From NCBI GenBank assembly GCA_016929495.1, contig JAFGIS010000355.1, positions 1-64,000 on the forward strand: a stretch of DNA of 64,000 nt. The letters are read 5' to 3'. Source of the stretch: Polyangiaceae bacterium. GTDB lineage: Bacteria; Myxococcota_A; Polyangia; Polyangiales; Polyangiaceae. Under the pieces are notes generated by a model. That model made no database searches and was not told the DNA's origin. It saw only the letters and a list, made by a program, of their open reading frames with translations. Each line of letters begins with the position of its first letter. Positions within the stretch are counted from its first letter, which is position 1. This document shows, piece by piece, positions 30,274-41,214 of the stretch. The position numbers and the translations under genes are program-made.

Positions 30274-30387
30274 TCAGGTCGTCGAAGGCAAACGGTCGAG
30301 AATGCGGCTCGCCTCGGCGCTCGCCCTCGGAGCGGGCCGCGTCCATGCCAGAGGCGCGGTCGCCCTCTCGACGGGCCGCACGGAGAT

Positions 30388-30906
30388 TCACTCCCCTTCG
30401 AGCCGAAACTCCGGGGTGTCGAACCAGAATCCGAGTCCCCCAACACAGTCCAGTTCCGCCTGGACGATGGCCTGGTGGCCCTCCTCGATCTCGACGAACC
30501 GCTCGAACAGCTGCCGTCCCTCCGCGTCGAGGGTGCGCACCATTTCCTTGTAGAAGTTGGCTGTCTCCACCTCCGCAGCCAACGCCTGCTTGAGGGCCTC
30601 CGTCTCGACGTCGTAACCCGGACGCGGCGCACCGGACACCTTGTGCTTGAGTTGCTCCACGCCGGCCGCGATCGCCGCACGACTCGGAATGGCCGTGCTG
30701 AGTTCCGCCACGGTCACTCTGCCGCTCTCGCGCCACTCGGTGAGTCGGTCGTGTAGGTACGCGATGTGCAGCTTCTCCTCGTCGCAGAGCGTGCTGAAGA
30801 CGCGCTGGGCTATTTCGTGCGTCGCAGCCCGCGAGGCTTCGAGATAGGTCCTGTGGACTCGTCCTTCGTATTCGAGCGCGGTCTTGATGGCTTGTTCCAG
30901 GTTCAC
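30388..30906 (-). CDS. ferritin-like/rubrerythrin-type diiron protein
   Basis: 172 residues from GTG 30906 (AGGTG upstream). Predicted four-helix bundle. Helix motifs ALEYEGRVHRTYLEA, CDEEKLHIAYL, EVETANFYKEM and IEEGHQAIVQAE carry the Glu and ExxH ligands of a ferritin-like diiron site. It lacks the C-terminal rubredoxin domain of true rubrerythrin. Probable role: peroxide reduction or iron handling in the cytosol. Single gene. Confidence 0.85.
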   Translation of the reverse strand: MNLEQAIKTALEYEGRVHRTYLEASRAATHEIAQRVFSTLCDEEKLHIAYLHDRLTEWRESGRVTVAELSTAIPSRAAIAAGVEQLKHKVSGAPRPGYDVETEALKQALAAEVETANFYKEMVRTLDAEGRQLFERFVEIEEGHQAIVQAELDCVGGLGFWFDTPEFRLEGE

Positions 30907-31092
30907 GCTGGAACACCTAGTACATCGGGCGCGCCGCCGCGAGGGGTGCGCCAGCGAGCGCGGAGCGCATCGTGGGCCGGCTCGCCGAGCGGGGAAGTCA
31001 GGCGTGTGGCGGCCGGAAGCGTCGATTGCGGGGCGAGGCGTGGCCGGGACCCTCGGATCCGCTGGCGCCCGAGCCGCGGGCACTCGAAGCCG

Positions 31093-31707
31093 TTATCCCT
31101 TCGTGATCTTCTGCCCTCGCATGACGATGTCGCGGCTGGCCTTGACGTTGATGTTGCCGGATCCCACGACGGTGATGTCCTTGCCGCGGATCTCGATGGA
31201 GCCGTCCTTCTTGAGAACGATGGAGGCCGCACCCGTGCGCAACGTCAGCGAATTCCCTGCCTCGATGACCGTATCCTTGCCCGTGCGCAGCACCAACGCG
31301 TCCCCCGCCTCGATGCTCACACCCTTGTGGACCGTGAGCGAGTGTGCACCCTCGATCCGCGTCTCACTGTCACCCGCTATCGACACGCGCTGTCTGTTGC
31401 CGATGGTGAGGGTCTGACCGCCGCCGATCGTCGTCTCCTGGTTGCCTCCAATGGAGGTCTGCTCAGCGCCGCCGATCGTCGTCGCGCGCGACGCGCCCAC
31501 CGCAGCGGTCTGGTTCTGACCGACGGACACCGAATCATTGCGATCGATCGTTGCGGACCGGTTGCCCGTCACGCGGACGACCTGATCCCCCGCCACGGTC
31601 GCCAAGGGCGTACCCGGGCCGCCCGGCTGCGGCGACCCGTCCCACGCCAAACACAATACGGTCAGTACCATGAGCCCGATGAGTCTACGGTCTGGTGTCG
31701 TTCTCAC
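31093..31707 (-). CDS. exported stand-alone VgrG-needle-like beta-helix protein
   Basis: 204 residues from GTG 31707 (GGAG 8 bases upstream). N-terminal hydrophobic segment (RLIGLMVLTVLCLAW) resembles a signal peptide. The rest is a run of short TIGGxxxTxIG-type repeats (TTIGGGQTLTIGN, TVHKGVSIEAGDALVL, SIVLKKDGSIEIRGKDITV), ending like the C-terminal needle of VgrG/phage gp5, a trimeric triple-stranded beta-helix. The N-terminal VgrG gp27/gp5 head domains are absent. It is not beside T6SS genes. Role unknown. Confidence 0.8.
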   Translation of the reverse strand: MRTTPDRRLIGLMVLTVLCLAWDGSPQPGGPGTPLATVAGDQVVRVTGNRSATIDRNDSVSVGQNQTAAVGASRATTIGGAEQTSIGGNQETTIGGGQTLTIGNRQRVSIAGDSETRIEGAHSLTVHKGVSIEAGDALVLRTGKDTVIEAGNSLTLRTGAASIVLKKDGSIEIRGKDITVVGSGNINVKASRDIVMRGQKITKG

Positions 31708-31790
31708 GATGACAGCTCCTGTTGCCTGGACGAACACGCAAGCGTAGCACGCGGGGCGATGCCGGCAGCGCGTGTCGATTGAGACAGCGC

Positions 31791-31986
31791 ACTCGACGAT
31801 GCGCACGCCGGCGCTCAAGAGCTTGGAACAGTAGGAGCGCGAGGCGAGTGTCACGAGCAGGCTGTCGGACTTGGCGGGCAGGAGCGGCCACACGTCCGCG
31901 CCGCGCAGGGCCCGTGATCGCCGCCAGGATGGCCTGGCTCGGGACGAAACACGGATTGGTGATCCAGACGCGCTCGCAGGCCAGGG
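31791..31986 (-). pseudogene. decayed fragment of cardiolipin synthase gene
   Basis: Reads closely like bases 40015-40214 of the intact cardiolipin synthase gene, same orientation. The minus-strand translation contains LPAKSDSLLVTLASRSY and, in another frame, ACERVWITNPCFVPSQAI, both near-identical to the intact protein. A 5-base deletion (GGCCGCGACCGTG in the intact gene, GGCCCGTG here) shifts the frame. Only about 65 codons of the C-terminal half remain, without either HKD motif complete. Confidence 0.9.
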
Positions 31987-32287
31987 CGCCCTCTCGATCG
32001 TCGACCGCTGAGCCGGACGGGACAGCACGATTCTGGATTCTGTTCAGTGCGACAAGGCAACCGAGGCACGTGTCGCGCCGCCCGTCCAGTCGAAGGGTTG
32101 CATTTGCAGAGCACGGTCTTCGACGAGATCGCCGCAGCTTGCGACTGCGCGACTTCCGGACGCCGCGCCAACGGCAGGGACGTCTGGAAAAGTGATGTAC
32201 CTGCCTGCCAGCCCGGATGGCCGCGGACGAAGACGATGAAAATGGGTATGGCTTTGGGGCCACGCCTGCTGTAGCATCACGCTCGCA

Positions 32288-33346
32288 ATGAGGTGCAAGA
32301 GGTCCGCGGCGGGCGCGGCAGGTATCTTTGTGCTCCTTCTTGGCGCATCGGGTCAGGCCCAGAATGCCGACAAGAGCGCAGCGGTCACGCTCTACGATCA
32401 AGCCCAGCAGCTCATGCAGCAGGGCCGCTATGAAGAAGCGTGCCCCAAGTATGCCGAAAGCAATCGCCTGGATCCGCAGCTCGGGGTTCTGCTGCACCTG
32501 GCTGACTGCTACGAAAAGGAGGGCAGGTTCGCCAGCGCCTGGGCGACGTTTCGCGACGCCGCCGATCTGGCGGATCGTCGAGCAGATGCCCGCAGTCTGG
32601 CAGCCAAGGACCGTGCCAGTGCGCTCGAAGGCCGGCTTTCTCGCTTGACCATTTCCGTGCCCCCCGAGTCCGCGGTTTCTGGGCTCGAAGTGGAGCGGGA
32701 TGGCACGACGATCGGTTCGGCTCTCTGGGGCACCGCTGTGCCAGTGGACCCTGGATCGCACACGGTGCGAGCTACCGCGCCTGGAAAGGTACCGTGGGAG
32801 TCGACGGTGGAGGTGACGGAGGTCGGAGCTGCAGCCGCCGTCACGGTGCCTGCGTTGGCCGACGCTCGTTCTGTCACGACTGGGACCCAGCAGGCAGTCG
32901 GGCACAACGCGACCTGGGAGTCGGGCGGCGACACGACCGCCGCGGGGCGGGGGTCGGGCCCGCAGCACCCGGGTGAGGAACGTCTCGTTTCGGGACCCAC
33001 CCAGCGCATCCTGGGCTATGTGGCAGGCGGACTGGGTGTGATTGGGGTGGGCGTGGGGATCGCGTATCTGGTCGAGCGCTCGGACGCACTCGATGACCGC
33101 GACGCAATCTGCCCGGCGTCGGTCGATTGCGCGCCCGGCGACCAGAGGAGAATCGACGAGTTGACGGATCGGGCACGGGACGCTTCGACGTTGGGCGCGG
33201 TCGGCTTGGTGGTTGGTGGTGCCCTGCTGGCTGGCGGAGCGGCGCTTGTCCTGACCGCGCCGGAGGACGGCGCCCGGCAAGGACTGATGGTGGCTCCGCT
33301 CGTCGGCAGGAGCGACGCAGGATTGCTGGTGAGGCAGGTCTGGTAG
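32288..33346 (+). CDS. TPR/PEGA-like envelope protein
   Basis: 352 residues. Signal peptide about 8-25 (AAGIFVLLLGASGQAQ). TPR-like helices about 30-110 (YDQAQQLMQQGRYEEACPKY, DPQLGVLLHLADCYEKEG), then a PEGA-like beta domain about 115-185 (VERDGTTIGSALWGTAVPVD). Two hydrophobic segments in the C-terminal half (about 238-258, 300-320). This architecture is common in Polyangia; the role is probably envelope assembly or scaffolding. Could begin the run of same-strand genes to 36922 (68 bases to the next). Confidence 0.78.
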   Translation: MRCKRSAAGAAGIFVLLLGASGQAQNADKSAAVTLYDQAQQLMQQGRYEEACPKYAESNRLDPQLGVLLHLADCYEKEGRFASAWATFRDAADLADRRADARSLAAKDRASALEGRLSRLTISVPPESAVSGLEVERDGTTIGSALWGTAVPVDPGSHTVRATAPGKVPWESTVEVTEVGAAAAVTVPALADARSVTTGTQQAVGHNATWESGGDTTAAGRGSGPQHPGEERLVSGPTQRILGYVAGGLGVIGVGVGIAYLVERSDALDDRDAICPASVDCAPGDQRRIDELTDRARDASTLGAVGLVVGGALLAGGAALVLTAPEDGARQGLMVAPLVGRSDAGLLVRQVW

Positions 33347-34236: not shown

Positions 34237-34250
34237 GTCTTGGAGGTCCC

Positions 34251-35156
34251 ATGATGAACAGAAGACGCATTCTGGTCGGGCTGCTGGCAGCAGGGCTCAT
34301 CAGTGGCGGTTTCATTGCTGGTCGCGTGCTCGCGGCCGGGATCCCTGCCACAGGCGCGCTCACCTACTCGGGAGTGCTCGAAGGCGAGGACGGCAAACCG
34401 CTGACTGGAAAGCACACCGTCGAGGTCAAGTTCTGGGCCACCGAGAGCGGCGGAGACGAGGCGCTTTGCACCAACAACGGGGAGGAAGTCACCCTCGTCA
34501 ACGGGCGGTTCTCCGTGGCTCTGCCCGATGGCTGCACGGACGAAGTCAAGGCCAACCCGGATCTGTGGGTAGAGGTCAGGGTGGACGGTGCGTCGCTGGG
34601 GCGCGCCAAGGCGGGAGCGGTGCCGTTTGCGGTCGAGGCAGGCAACGGCGCTCCCATTGCCAGCATCGTCGCCAGCCTGCTCGACGAAACAGAATTCGCT
34701 GCCGTGCAGGGCCCCGGCTGGGTGCTCGCCGACGGGCGCGACGTGACGGGCTCGGCGTACCACGAGCTCGGCAAGGGCACGAACGTGCCGGACCTACGCG
34801 GCATGTTTCTGCGCGGGAAGAACAACGGACGGGAGGACGAGCTGGCCAATCCCGAGGGCGAGTTCGCGCTGGGCGAGGTCCAGGAAGCGCAGCTGGCACA
34901 GCACGGGCATTCGGTGACGGACCCTGGGCACGACCATCAGGCGCCCACTACGGACGGGAACACCGGCAGTGTCGAGGTGGCCAGTCCGACCTCGGGCGGC
35001 TTCGACTACATCTCCGCCGGGAGTCCCATGACTTCGTCCAACGATACCGGCATCACCATCGGCAACGCCTCCGCCACGAGCGCCGACCCCGCTGCCGTCG
35101 GAGACGAAACGCGCCCGCAGAACGTCACCGTCAACTACTTTATCCGTGTAAACTGA
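34251..35156 (+). CDS. exported constant-region protein with phage tail-collar-like C-terminus
   Basis: 301 residues. Signal-anchor (LVGLLAAGLISGGFIAGRVL), then a ~115-residue constant region shared with the next two genes (GALTYSGVLEG, LTGKHTVEVKFWA, VALPDGCTDEVKANPDLW). From about residue 145 the C-terminus is unlike the paralogues: VPDLRGMFLRGKN, LAQHGHSVTDPGHDHQ and ETRPQNVTVNYFIRV are the signatures of phage tail-collar domains. GGAGG lies upstream of the ATG. I infer a cell-surface fibre-like or binding protein; actual partner unknown. First of three tandem paralogues. Confidence 0.8.
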   Translation: MMNRRRILVGLLAAGLISGGFIAGRVLAAGIPATGALTYSGVLEGEDGKPLTGKHTVEVKFWATESGGDEALCTNNGEEVTLVNGRFSVALPDGCTDEVKANPDLWVEVRVDGASLGRAKAGAVPFAVEAGNGAPIASIVASLLDETEFAAVQGPGWVLADGRDVTGSAYHELGKGTNVPDLRGMFLRGKNNGREDELANPEGEFALGEVQEAQLAQHGHSVTDPGHDHQAPTTDGNTGSVEVASPTSGGFDYISAGSPMTSSNDTGITIGNASATSADPAAVGDETRPQNVTVNYFIRVN

Positions 35157-35192
35157 CCCATCACCGCACGCCGCTGCTGTTCGGAGGCTCCC

Positions 35193-35999
35193 ATGTTGAC
35201 AAGAACACGCATGCTTCTCTGCCTCGCAACCACAGGCCTCATCGCCGGCGCATTCCTGGCCGGTCGTGTGCTCGCCGCCGGGATCCCTGCCGCAGGCGCG
35301 CTCACCTACTCCGGAGTGCTCGAAGGGGAAAACGGAGAGCCCCTGACCGGAAAGCACACAGTGGAGGTGAGGTTCTGGGCCGCCGAGTCCGGCGGTGACA
35401 ACGCCCTTTGCACCAACTACGGGCAAGAGGTCGCGCTTGAGAGCGGTCGCTTCTCGGTCGCGCTGCCGGATGGCTGCACGGACGCCGTCAAGGCCCACCC
35501 GGATCTGTGGGTCGAGGTCGTGGTGGATGGCGCGTCGCTGGGACGCGCCAAAGCGGGAGCGGTGCCGTTCGCGGTGGAGGCGGGGCATGCGACGAGCGCG
35601 GATAGCGCTGCCAGCGCAAGTGAGGCGGTCACGGCCACAAACGCGACGCATGCCACCAGCGCGGACAGCGCGACGACAGCGACCAACGCCGCCCAGCTCG
35701 CAGGCGATGGTCCCGAGTCCTTCCAGCGGCCACTCGACGGCTCCTGCGATTCTGGAATTGCAGCTGTCGCGGCGGACGGCACGACAACGTGCACCAAGTT
35801 CGTCGTGTTTCAGAAGCCCGGCAACAATGGAACAGCCTCGTGCGACACCTTCTGCGCAGGCTCCGAATGGGGCGCCACCGGGACTTGTGTGGGTGCGCAG
35901 AAGGCCGATACACTTGAGTACGTCACCTGCCACGATACGAACGTTCCGGAAGGCAACCTCAATGGACTGTACTGCTGGTGCAGTCGTCCGGTCATATGA
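35193..35999 (+). CDS. second constant-region paralogue with Cys-rich C-terminus
   Basis: 268 residues. Same signal-anchor and constant region as its neighbours (GALTYSGVLEGENGEPLTG, VALPDGCTDAVKAHPDLW, DGASLGRAKAGAVPFAVEAG). A short Ala/Thr/Ser repeat (about 132-170, HATSADSATTATNAA) leads to a distinct ~95-residue C-terminus with about eight Cys (SCDTFCAGSEWG, GTCVGAQ, VTCHD, YCWCSRPV), probably disulfide-rich and extracellular. Starts 36 bases after the first paralogue. No family recognised for the C-terminal domain. Confidence 0.78.
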   Translation: MLTRTRMLLCLATTGLIAGAFLAGRVLAAGIPAAGALTYSGVLEGENGEPLTGKHTVEVRFWAAESGGDNALCTNYGQEVALESGRFSVALPDGCTDAVKAHPDLWVEVVVDGASLGRAKAGAVPFAVEAGHATSADSAASASEAVTATNATHATSADSATTATNAAQLAGDGPESFQRPLDGSCDSGIAAVAADGTTTCTKFVVFQKPGNNGTASCDTFCAGSEWGATGTCVGAQKADTLEYVTCHDTNVPEGNLNGLYCWCSRPVI

Positions 36000-36121
36000 G
36001 GTCGCTTCTCGCTCAGCCTCCGCTGCCCAGAGCGCCTCTCCTCCAGTCATGAAGCACTCGCTGTCTACAGCACTCCAGACCCCTGCCATTCGGCTCCGCA
36101 GCTGACGCCCGGAGATTCCCC

Positions 36122-36922
36122 ATGACGACCAGAGAACGCATCCTGATCGGTCTTGCAGCAACGGCCCTCATCGCCGGTGCATTCCTGGCTGGCCGCACGC
36201 TCGCGGCTGGTATTCCTTCCTCGGGCGCGCTCACCTACTCGGGAGTGCTCGAAGGCGAGAACGGAGGGCCCCTGACCGGAAAGCACACGGTAGAGGTCAA
36301 ATTCTGGGCCGCCGAGACCGGCGGTGACATGGCGCTCTGTAGCAACAACGGCCAGCAGGTCACGCTCGTCAATGGGCGCTTTGCCGTGGCTTTGCCGGAC
36401 GGTTGCACGGACGCCGTCAAGGCCCACCCGGATCTGTGGGTCGAGGTCGTGGTGGATGGCGCGTCGCTCGGGCGCGCCAAGGCCGGGGCCGTGCCGTTTG
36501 CGGTGGAGGCGGGGCATGCGACGACTGCGGACAGCGCCACGACTGCAGACAGCGCGGAGACGGCCACAAGCGCCACGACTGCAGACAGCGCGGAGACGGC
36601 CACAAGTGCCGAAACAGCCACGACCGCGGAGACGGCAACCAGTGCGCAGACCGCTCTCTCGGCCGAGAAGTGTACCAGCGCCCAGAACGCGGCGACCGCG
36701 ACCAGCGCCAATGTGGCCGATAGGGTCACGCTTCACTACGCAGACCTCGTTGCCGAGGACGAGCCCGGCGGGCATGCTCAATGGTGCATCGAGAACAGCG
36801 GCGACGGTGTCTCGTGCACAGTCGCGGCGAACCGAAAATGCGCAGCGCTGGGGTACTCAGGGGGATGGTTCGTCGGAGAGTCGGCGGATGGGACGCATCG
36901 AAGCATCATGTGCCTGCAATAG
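36122..36922 (+). CDS. third constant-region paralogue with Ala/Thr repeat stalk
   Basis: 266 residues. Signal-anchor and constant region as in the previous two genes, with part near-identical at the DNA level. A long stalk of ATTADSAETATSA-type repeats (about 135-180) follows, the periodicity expected of a trimeric or coiled fibre-like shaft, then a ~70-residue tip (LHYADLVAEDEPGGHAQWC, KCAALGYSGGWFVGES) with several Cys. Tip family not recognised. The set of three suggests modular exchange of tips on a common base. Confidence 0.78.
   Translation: MTTRERILIGLAATALIAGAFLAGRTLAAGIPSSGALTYSGVLEGENGGPLTGKHTVEVKFWAAETGGDMALCSNNGQQVTLVNGRFAVALPDGCTDAVKAHPDLWVEVVVDGASLGRAKAGAVPFAVEAGHATTADSATTADSAETATSATTADSAETATSAETATTAETATSAQTALSAEKCTSAQNAATATSANVADRVTLHYADLVAEDEPGGHAQWCIENSGDGVSCTVAANRKCAALGYSGGWFVGESADGTHRSIMCLQ
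36536..36607 (+). repeat. tandem 36-bp repeat in stalk of third paralogue
   Basis: Two adjacent 36-base units (36536 and 36572) are identical except for the final base, and diverged units flank them. They encode the ATTADSAETATS stalk, so the stalk length can change by unit gain or loss. Confidence 0.85.
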
Positions 36923-39744: not shown

Positions 39745-41214
39745 CTACAGCAACGGCGACAGCAGCCGCGCCACCGCTCTGGCCAGCCGCCGTACCAGCC
39801 GCACGCGACGCTCGCGTTGGGCCGTCACCTCGATAGCGGCTTCGAGGTCGAGCTCGAACCGGTTCGCCAGATCGCGGCACAATGCCGGACCGAAGACGAA
39901 CGCGTTGAGCTCGAAATTGAGGGTGAAGGAGCGCATATCCATGTTTGCGGAGCCAACGGTCGCGAGCCACTCGTCCACGACCATGGTCTTGGCGTGCACG
40001 AAACCGCGGGCGTACTCGAAGATGCGCACGCCGGCGCCCAAAAGCTCGGAGTAGTAGGAGCGCGAGGCGAGCGTCACGAGCAAGCTGTCGGACTTGGCGG
40101 GCAAGAGCAGCCGCACGTCGACGCCGCGCAGGGCCGCGACCGTGATCGCCGCCAGAATGGCCTGGCTCGGGATGAAATACGGATTGGTGATCCAGACGCG
40201 CTCGCAGGCCAGTGCGACCGCCTGCGCATAGTAGAGCTCCATCGCCGGCCAACGCTGGTCCGGTCCCGAGTCGATCACCTGGACCAGGCAATCCCCCGAC
40301 GAGGGACTCTCGGGGAAGTATCGTTCGTCCTCCAGCCGCTCGCCGGTGGTCATCAACCAGTCGTGCAAAAAGGCCTGCTGGAGGCTCAGCACGGCCGGAC
40401 CCTCGATGCGCACGTGCGTATCGCGCCAGGCCCCGATTTCCGGGTCCAGGCCGAGATACTCGCGTCCGACGTTGATGCCGCCCGTGAAGCCGGCCCGACC
40501 GTCCACCACGACGATCTTCCTGTGATTGCGGAAATCAGCGCGATCGCGCCTGCGGATCCTGGGAATGAGCTTGGTAAGCGGACCAAAGACGGCGGCGTGT
40601 CCACCCGCTGCGCGAAGCGGCTGCCAGAAGTCCGAGGGCAAGGCATAGCTACCGATGGCATCGCAGAGCACCCTCACCTCTATACCGGACGCGGCGCGCC
40701 GGGCCAGCGCGTCGCGCAACGCGGCGCCGACGGCATCGGGTTGGATGATGTAGAACTGAACGTGGATATGGTCCTGGGCCTGGTCGATGGCTTCCAGGAT
40801 CTCCGGGTAGGTCACGGCGGCGTCGTTGAGCACGCGCGTGGCGTTGCCCGAGCTTGCCGGCGTGCTCGCCAGAGCGTTGCCCAACGCGACCTGCGCCAGG
40901 GTGCGCGCCTCTGCCGCACCGCCGCCACGCCCCTGCAACCGATCCCGCACATTGTGCTGGGAGAGCACGTGCTCGAGCCGCGCCACCGCCCATGCAGAGC
41001 GTTTGACCGTGCGGCGCATGCGCGTGCGGCCCAGGAGCAAGTAGCCGAGCACGCCCAGGACCGGCGCGAACACGATGAACAGCACCCAGGCCAGCGTGGC
41101 CGTGGGGTTTCGGCGACGCGCGAGCAGTACCCAGCCGATGATCGCGACGTGCAGACCCAGACCAGCAAGCTCGAGCACGAAGGTTAGGACCACGGGGTCG
41201 ATATCGGGCGACAT
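39745..41214 (-). CDS. cls: cardiolipin synthase (phospholipase D family)
   Basis: 489 residues, typical. Two N-terminal transmembrane segments (about 7-30 and 38-62), then two PLD domains with HKD motifs: FRNHRKIVVVDGRAGFTGG and VHAKTMVVDEWLATVGSANM. It condenses two phosphatidylglycerols into cardiolipin at the inner membrane. The catalytic His/Lys/Asp are all present. The intact copy; a decayed ~200-base copy of its C-terminal half lies at 31791-31986. Confidence 0.95.
   Translation of the reverse strand: MSPDIDPVVLTFVLELAGLGLHVAIIGWVLLARRRNPTATLAWVLFIVFAPVLGVLGYLLLGRTRMRRTVKRSAWAVARLEHVLSQHNVRDRLQGRGGGAAEARTLAQVALGNALASTPASSGNATRVLNDAAVTYPEILEAIDQAQDHIHVQFYIIQPDAVGAALRDALARRAASGIEVRVLCDAIGSYALPSDFWQPLRAAGGHAAVFGPLTKLIPRIRRRDRADFRNHRKIVVVDGRAGFTGGINVGREYLGLDPEIGAWRDTHVRIEGPAVLSLQQAFLHDWLMTTGERLEDERYFPESPSSGDCLVQVIDSGPDQRWPAMELYYAQAVALACERVWITNPYFIPSQAILAAITVAALRGVDVRLLLPAKSDSLLVTLASRSYYSELLGAGVRIFEYARGFVHAKTMVVDEWLATVGSANMDMRSFTLNFELNAFVFGPALCRDLANRFELDLEAAIEVTAQRERRVRLVRRLARAVARLLSPLL

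Follow-up and report, generated by a model that had tools for sequence, protein, structure and literature searches.

A VgrG needle behind a signal-like N-terminus

The 64,000-nucleotide stretch analysed here (the window; positions 1 to 64,000 of contig JAFGIS010000355.1, Polyangiaceae bacterium, assembly GCA_016929495.1) contains a gene for a protein of 204 residues, in which a signal-like N-terminus is joined to the triple-stranded beta-helix, or needle, that ends the type VI secretion system (T6SS) protein VgrG/TssI and corresponds to the C-terminal domain of phage T4 gp5. An earlier note, made from the letters of the window alone, had described the protein as consisting of these two parts only, without the gp27/gp5 head domains, and our analysis bears this out. 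The coordinates of the gene, its parts and its neighbours are given in Table 1.

Pfam assigns the protein to Gp5_trimer_C (E 8.7e-19). The octad period (VxGxxxxx) is evident from 17 V/I-V/I and 12 G-G pairs at a spacing of eight residues, neither of which was reached in any of 10,000 shuffles. This octad stretch runs through 168 codons without interruption and has a coding-type GC content at third codon positions (GC3) of 0.845; for the whole gene, GC by codon position is 0.59/0.52/0.82, and its GC3 resembles that of the neighbouring genes. AlphaFold2, given an input that included 43 VgrG C-termini, models the protein with a mean predicted local distance difference test (pLDDT) score of 85.5, which is low solely in the N-terminus, while ten-residue means are at least 87 across residues 41-200. 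The top Foldseek matches of this model are VgrG needles (4mtk at 1.0 Å over 108 columns), and a search of the PDB returned short gp5 needle chains of ~96 residues. The protein also carries the conserved C-terminal tip motif with which VgrG ends.

Compared with 34 VgrG-type frames from the source genome and related genomes, homology starts at needle residues 32-38 in 29 cases, and at residue 37 or 38 in 21. The best alignments extend to the VgrG C-terminus (L037: 498-668 of 670). The needle is therefore cut at a domain edge and not at a random position. Phage_GPD, the gp27-like head, is absent from the open reading frame, from its in-frame extension and from the six frames upstream, and Pfam did not find the OB-fold domain DUF6484 in the protein. 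The in-frame extension to 32028 gains no VgrG domain, and none of the six frames at 31708-32300 has VgrG homology better than E 0.15. With no head or OB domain 5' of the gene, an upstream start that would yield a full VgrG, one of the outcomes that would have refuted the earlier note, is ruled out. Its other refuting outcome did not arise either, as the signal-like N-terminus is strong and the neighbours scanned include no T6SS cluster.

The first eight residues have a net charge of +2 and are followed by LIGLMVLTVLCL, with a mean hydropathy of 2.93. Among 3,007 starts of the window that have 40 open codons, only 4 reach this hydropathy together with a positive n-region; by hydropathy alone, the value is reached by 19 of 4,493 window starts, a background that includes real exported genes. 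Judged by eye, cleavage would likely occur after CLA. Cys 19 lies outside a classical lipobox. We consider the predicted export of the needle and its fold class well supported by the sequence.

Table 1. Features of the needle gene and its surroundings in the window
Feature	Position	Strand	Basis
Needle gene, signal-like N-terminus and VgrG/gp5 needle, 204 aa	31093..31707	-	Open reading frame, Pfam
GTG start codon of the needle gene	31707-31705	-	Read from sequence
AGGAG, Shine-Dalgarno-like, 8 nt before GTG	31716..31720	-	Read directly from sequence
Signal-like N-terminus (RTTPDRR + LIGLMVLTVLCLAW) and Gly/Pro linker, codons 1-36	31600..31707	-	Hydrophobicity and charge compared with window starts; start of VgrG homology
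VgrG/gp5 triple-stranded beta-helix, 21 octads, VgrG C-terminal tip motif, codons 37-204	31096..31599	-	Pfam, VgrG alignment, model, octad test
Broken partial copy of cls-like gene, upstream of the needle gene	31787..31988		88.9-89% DNA identity to 40010-40216
Ferritin/rubrerythrin-like protein, ~190 bp downstream of the needle gene, same strand	30388..30906	-	Pfam
Exported-looking protein, T4 gp12-like receptor-binding/collar tip	34248..35156	+	Match of the C-terminus to gp12 of T4 (short tail fibre), E 2.8e-6
N-terminal paralog of the 34248..35156 protein, different C-terminus	35193..35999	+	By eye; no Pfam match
Another N-terminal paralog of the 34248..35156 protein	36122..36922	+	By eye; no Pfam match

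Long relatives of the needle are VgrG proteins

With the full protein as query, 26 of 317 genomes of the class, the source included, give a match at E <=1e-12. All frames from these 26 genomes besides the needle are VgrG-sized, except one that is cut by a contig end. A profile scan of GTDB contigs yielded 304 relatives, the best 80 of which are all VgrG-type frames (three of these 80 run off the contig end), and phage records gave no match to the needle protein. Identity between the needle and the VgrG rows among the matches listed is about 37-46%. Several candidates for further stand-alone needles were ruled out: L018 is a VgrG-like gene broken across frames, L164 is a split VgrG, and both L046 and a frame on G055:C93 run off the contig end.

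Short exported-type relatives recur in the phylum

A sample of 377 genomes of the phylum contained, in genome G547, a frame of 148 codons composed of a hydrophobic N-terminus and a VgrG tip. When this frame was used as query against 367 genomes, its best match besides itself was the window needle (53% over 62 residues), and short frames were also obtained in G370 and G056. A profile built from these four sequences, run on 306 genomes of the class and 71 of G547's class, added G053, G058 and G059. The short frames examined are those below ~420 aa among the matches listed in the profile searches, together with one from the search with the G547 frame. Seven of the 56 scored are of the exported type; they amount to six distinct sequences in six genomes, since the genes of L167 and L168 have identical DNA. 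These two genes come from two genomes of one genus and are probably one contig that was binned twice (cross-binned). With the window needle, the exported type thus comprises seven distinct sequences in seven genomes among the matches listed. Each short relative joins a hydrophobic, signal-like N-terminus to an octad segment of the VgrG tip, and the window needle is the longest of the seven (204 aa, compared with 116-135 aa). The other 49 frames were assigned by eye to DUF6484 proteins, OB-fold spikes or broken VgrG, with Pfam confirming DUF6484 in L177 alone.

Four of the short relatives, L163, L166, L168 and L169 of genus g36, have the signal, the octad core and a C-terminal SEIF in common, and L163 is shorter by exactly one octad of eight residues. 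By hydropathy, the N-termini of these four fall within the highest 0.3-2% of background starts. In pairwise comparison, the proportion of synonymous differences (pS) is 0.36-0.42 and that of nonsynonymous differences (pN) 0.12-0.26, with a pN of 0.09 in the octad core and of 0.14 in the signal. These four relatives are under purifying selection. In G370, a frame on the needle's strand that opens ~40 bp past the stop of the small needle has, by eye, a lipoprotein-like start, and the frame that follows it is predicted to encode an outer-membrane barrel.

Neighbouring genes and contractile systems in the source genome

A broken copy of ~0.2 kb, derived from a parent gene 8 kb away (39745-41214), lies directly upstream of the needle gene; we take the parent to be cls (cardiolipin synthase-like). 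The ferritin/rubrerythrin-like gene downstream is present in 5 of 106 genomes of the family, counting the source genome, and we found no evidence that ties it to the needle. The one flank of this gene that was read, L147, contains no needle-like frame of at least 120 codons. No terminator-like site was found in 30300-32400.

About 3 kb from the needle, the tail-collar protein that the earlier note had pointed out is real: at its C-terminal end it resembles gp12, the short tail fibre of T4. It is the first of three tandem, exported-looking paralogs on the forward strand (34248-36922), which have a common N-terminal domain and differing C-termini. By eye, this layout resembles that of the mosaic adhesive trimer (MAT) fibres of Bdellovibrio.

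A Pfam scan of the six neighbours at 28-37 kb, which included no search aimed at PdpA, found no T6SS genes, and searches of the source genome for T6SS and VgrG genes gave no match on the window's contig besides the needle. The words 'without a T6SS' in the earlier note are nevertheless not borne out by the genome as a whole: contig C645 carries TssK, TssJ, Hcp, TssB, TssC, TssF and a ClpV-like ATPase, and a full-length VgrG of 696 aa is encoded on contig C497. Beside Hcp in the C645 locus, a frame of 1,032 codons with a transglycosylase SLT domain (L061:3429-6524, reverse strand; G000:C645) is possibly a cell-wall enzyme belonging to this locus. Furthermore, contig C90 (L065, G000:C90) encodes a GPD-like baseplate hub adjoining a contractile injection system (CIS) tube protein. 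This pair may represent a second contractile system, possibly an extracellular CIS (eCIS) or a prophage.

Discussion

We think it probable that the window needle is a Sec-exported, stand-alone triple-stranded beta-helix that trimerises by itself and serves as a rigid spike of the cell envelope. In this model, the first ~20 residues would take the chain across the inner membrane, after which they would either be removed by cleavage or stay in place as an anchor. The octad domain of 168 residues would then self-trimerise in the periplasm and form a rigid needle with a VgrG-type tip. According to PMC4576200, the beta-helix of T4 gp5 is able to fold unaided, and 187 residues of this needle span 100 Å. 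Scaled from these values, the window needle would be ~100 Å long.

The closest functional precedent is provided by the MAT proteins of Bdellovibrio, which PMC10769870 describes as exported, phage-tail-like trimeric beta-fibres on the surface of the predator. By analogy, the most likely role of the needle would be that of a rigid spike of the envelope or surface, a stalk or an adhesive fibre. MAT fibres differ in having a conserved domain of ~130 aa after the signal peptide, as well as tips of other kinds. Both are absent from the needle gene, whose homology to VgrG begins at ~residue 37. The genes that by eye look MAT-like are instead its neighbours at 34-37 kb, one of which has the gp12-like tip. 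The notion of a domesticated beta-helix with a periplasmic or surface role, put forward in the earlier note, survives in part. The idea of an exported, stand-alone needle derived from VgrG withstood our tests and is strengthened by the recurrence of short exported relatives, but the organism is not free of T6SS. As that premise was wrong, 'domesticated' would here have to refer to separation from a T6SS that the genome still carries. The cleavage and trimerisation of the needle, its location and its role in the periplasm or at the surface are inferred.

More tentatively, and with confidence that stops a little short of an even balance, we suggest that the window needle is the longest member found of a group of small needles in this phylum (the seven sequences described above). 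These would be VgrG/gp5 beta-helices removed from an injection machine and now Sec-exported, forming small trimeric envelope spikes that may take part in contact with neighbouring cells.

Several observations weigh against these interpretations. No ortholog of the needle was found in the 317 genomes of the class, so that selection on the needle protein itself is not measurable, and a first scan of GTDB contigs, sensitive to close relatives only, confirmed none of 78 candidate stretches. The short relatives match the needle only in a tip of ~75 residues and lack the long octad array. Two of them, L162 and L151, have only moderately hydrophobic N-termini (equalled by 4% and 8% of background starts, respectively). 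In a crude hydrophobicity test of the 56 short frames, which required a positive n-region, L162 scored just 1.31, and L151 was outscored by L177 and L218, neither of which was judged to be exported. VIA-align gave middling Z values of at most 7.1, with VgrG rows on top. A phylogeny against VgrG C-termini, proposed in the earlier note, does keep the exported rows together to one side of a branch in tip trees of 85 columns, but with weak support (89/71 with L162, 86/48 without), and a tree that groups the window needle with the rows from proteobacteria is not rejected (p-AU 0.144). The tip trees would thus be compatible with either a single origin of the exported rows or repeated origins from VgrG. 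Finally, the locus has been rearranged, as the broken cls-like copy 80 bp upstream of the needle shows.

This rearrangement, together with the needle being an orphan in all searches and with a source genome that is fragmented into 675 contigs and has 7% contamination, raises the question whether the gene is a remnant. A VgrG gene could have been cut when the cls-like gene was duplicated, which would leave a functionless 3' portion behind a chance start and a signal-like stretch. We regard this as unlikely. Such an event would have to produce a cut at the domain edge, next to an AGGAG box and an N-terminus of a kind matched by so few of the window's starts, and leave the octads unbroken with a GC3 typical of coding DNA. 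The region upstream (31708-32300) gives no VgrG match better than E 0.15 in any frame, and similar exported proteins recur in other genomes.

Alternatively, the protein could be a VgrG reduced to its needle that works for a T6SS or another contractile system, the head coming from a separate hub protein. Francisella VgrG, according to PMC5924787, has 164 aa, lacks the head and OB fold and likely has PdpA as its partner. The window needle shares this reduced architecture (PDB 6u9e chain B for the Francisella protein), and it has a weak match to the Francisella-type family NCBIfam NF041249 (26.5 bits, below the cut-off of 100). In addition, the source genome has a T6SS locus, and the GPD-like hub beside the CIS tube protein on C90 could in principle supply a separate head. 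We nevertheless find it improbable that the needle serves the T6SS or another contractile system in this way. The gene lies away from both systems and a full-length VgrG is present. Whereas the Francisella protein is a T6SS component that works with PdpA, the window needle has a strong signal-like N-terminus, and V. cholerae VgrG is described in the same source as lacking a signal sequence. VgrG/TssI itself shares with the needle the octad beta-helix and the C-terminal tip motif but not the signal-like N-terminus or the position outside a T6SS locus. A role as T6SS spike is unlikely because the needle is without a gp27-like head and OB fold and is predicted to be exported.

Slightly less probable again is that the needle acts in the periplasm as a decoy or plug that counters T6SS spikes, whether incoming or the cell's own, with a tip that would bind PAAR-type tips or dock with effectors. 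The C-terminal motif of the VgrG tip is conserved in the needle, and the TvpC/DUF6484 proteins, small separate proteins that likewise end in a segment resembling the VgrG tip, are described in PMC13373197 as partial VgrG mimics with a role in T6SS spike assembly, but these have an OB-fold domain and by eye are not of the exported type, we found no direct evidence for a decoy, and the short relatives of g36 continue beyond the tip with other residues.

We therefore return to the exported envelope needle. Search listings of the open PMC library showed no paper that describes a VgrG needle which is exported and stands alone. Needle-only VgrG proteins, small VgrG mimics and exported fibres are each known; it is their combination in an exported needle alone that these listings did not show. 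If this interpretation is correct, the needle of phage tails and the T6SS, which folds by itself, can also exist alone as an exported protein, and the reuse of phage-tail parts at the cell surface, as in the MAT proteins of Bdellovibrio, would extend to the central spike. A small, tractable protein with shorter relatives under purifying selection may thus help to learn what function a needle has in the absence of a sheath.
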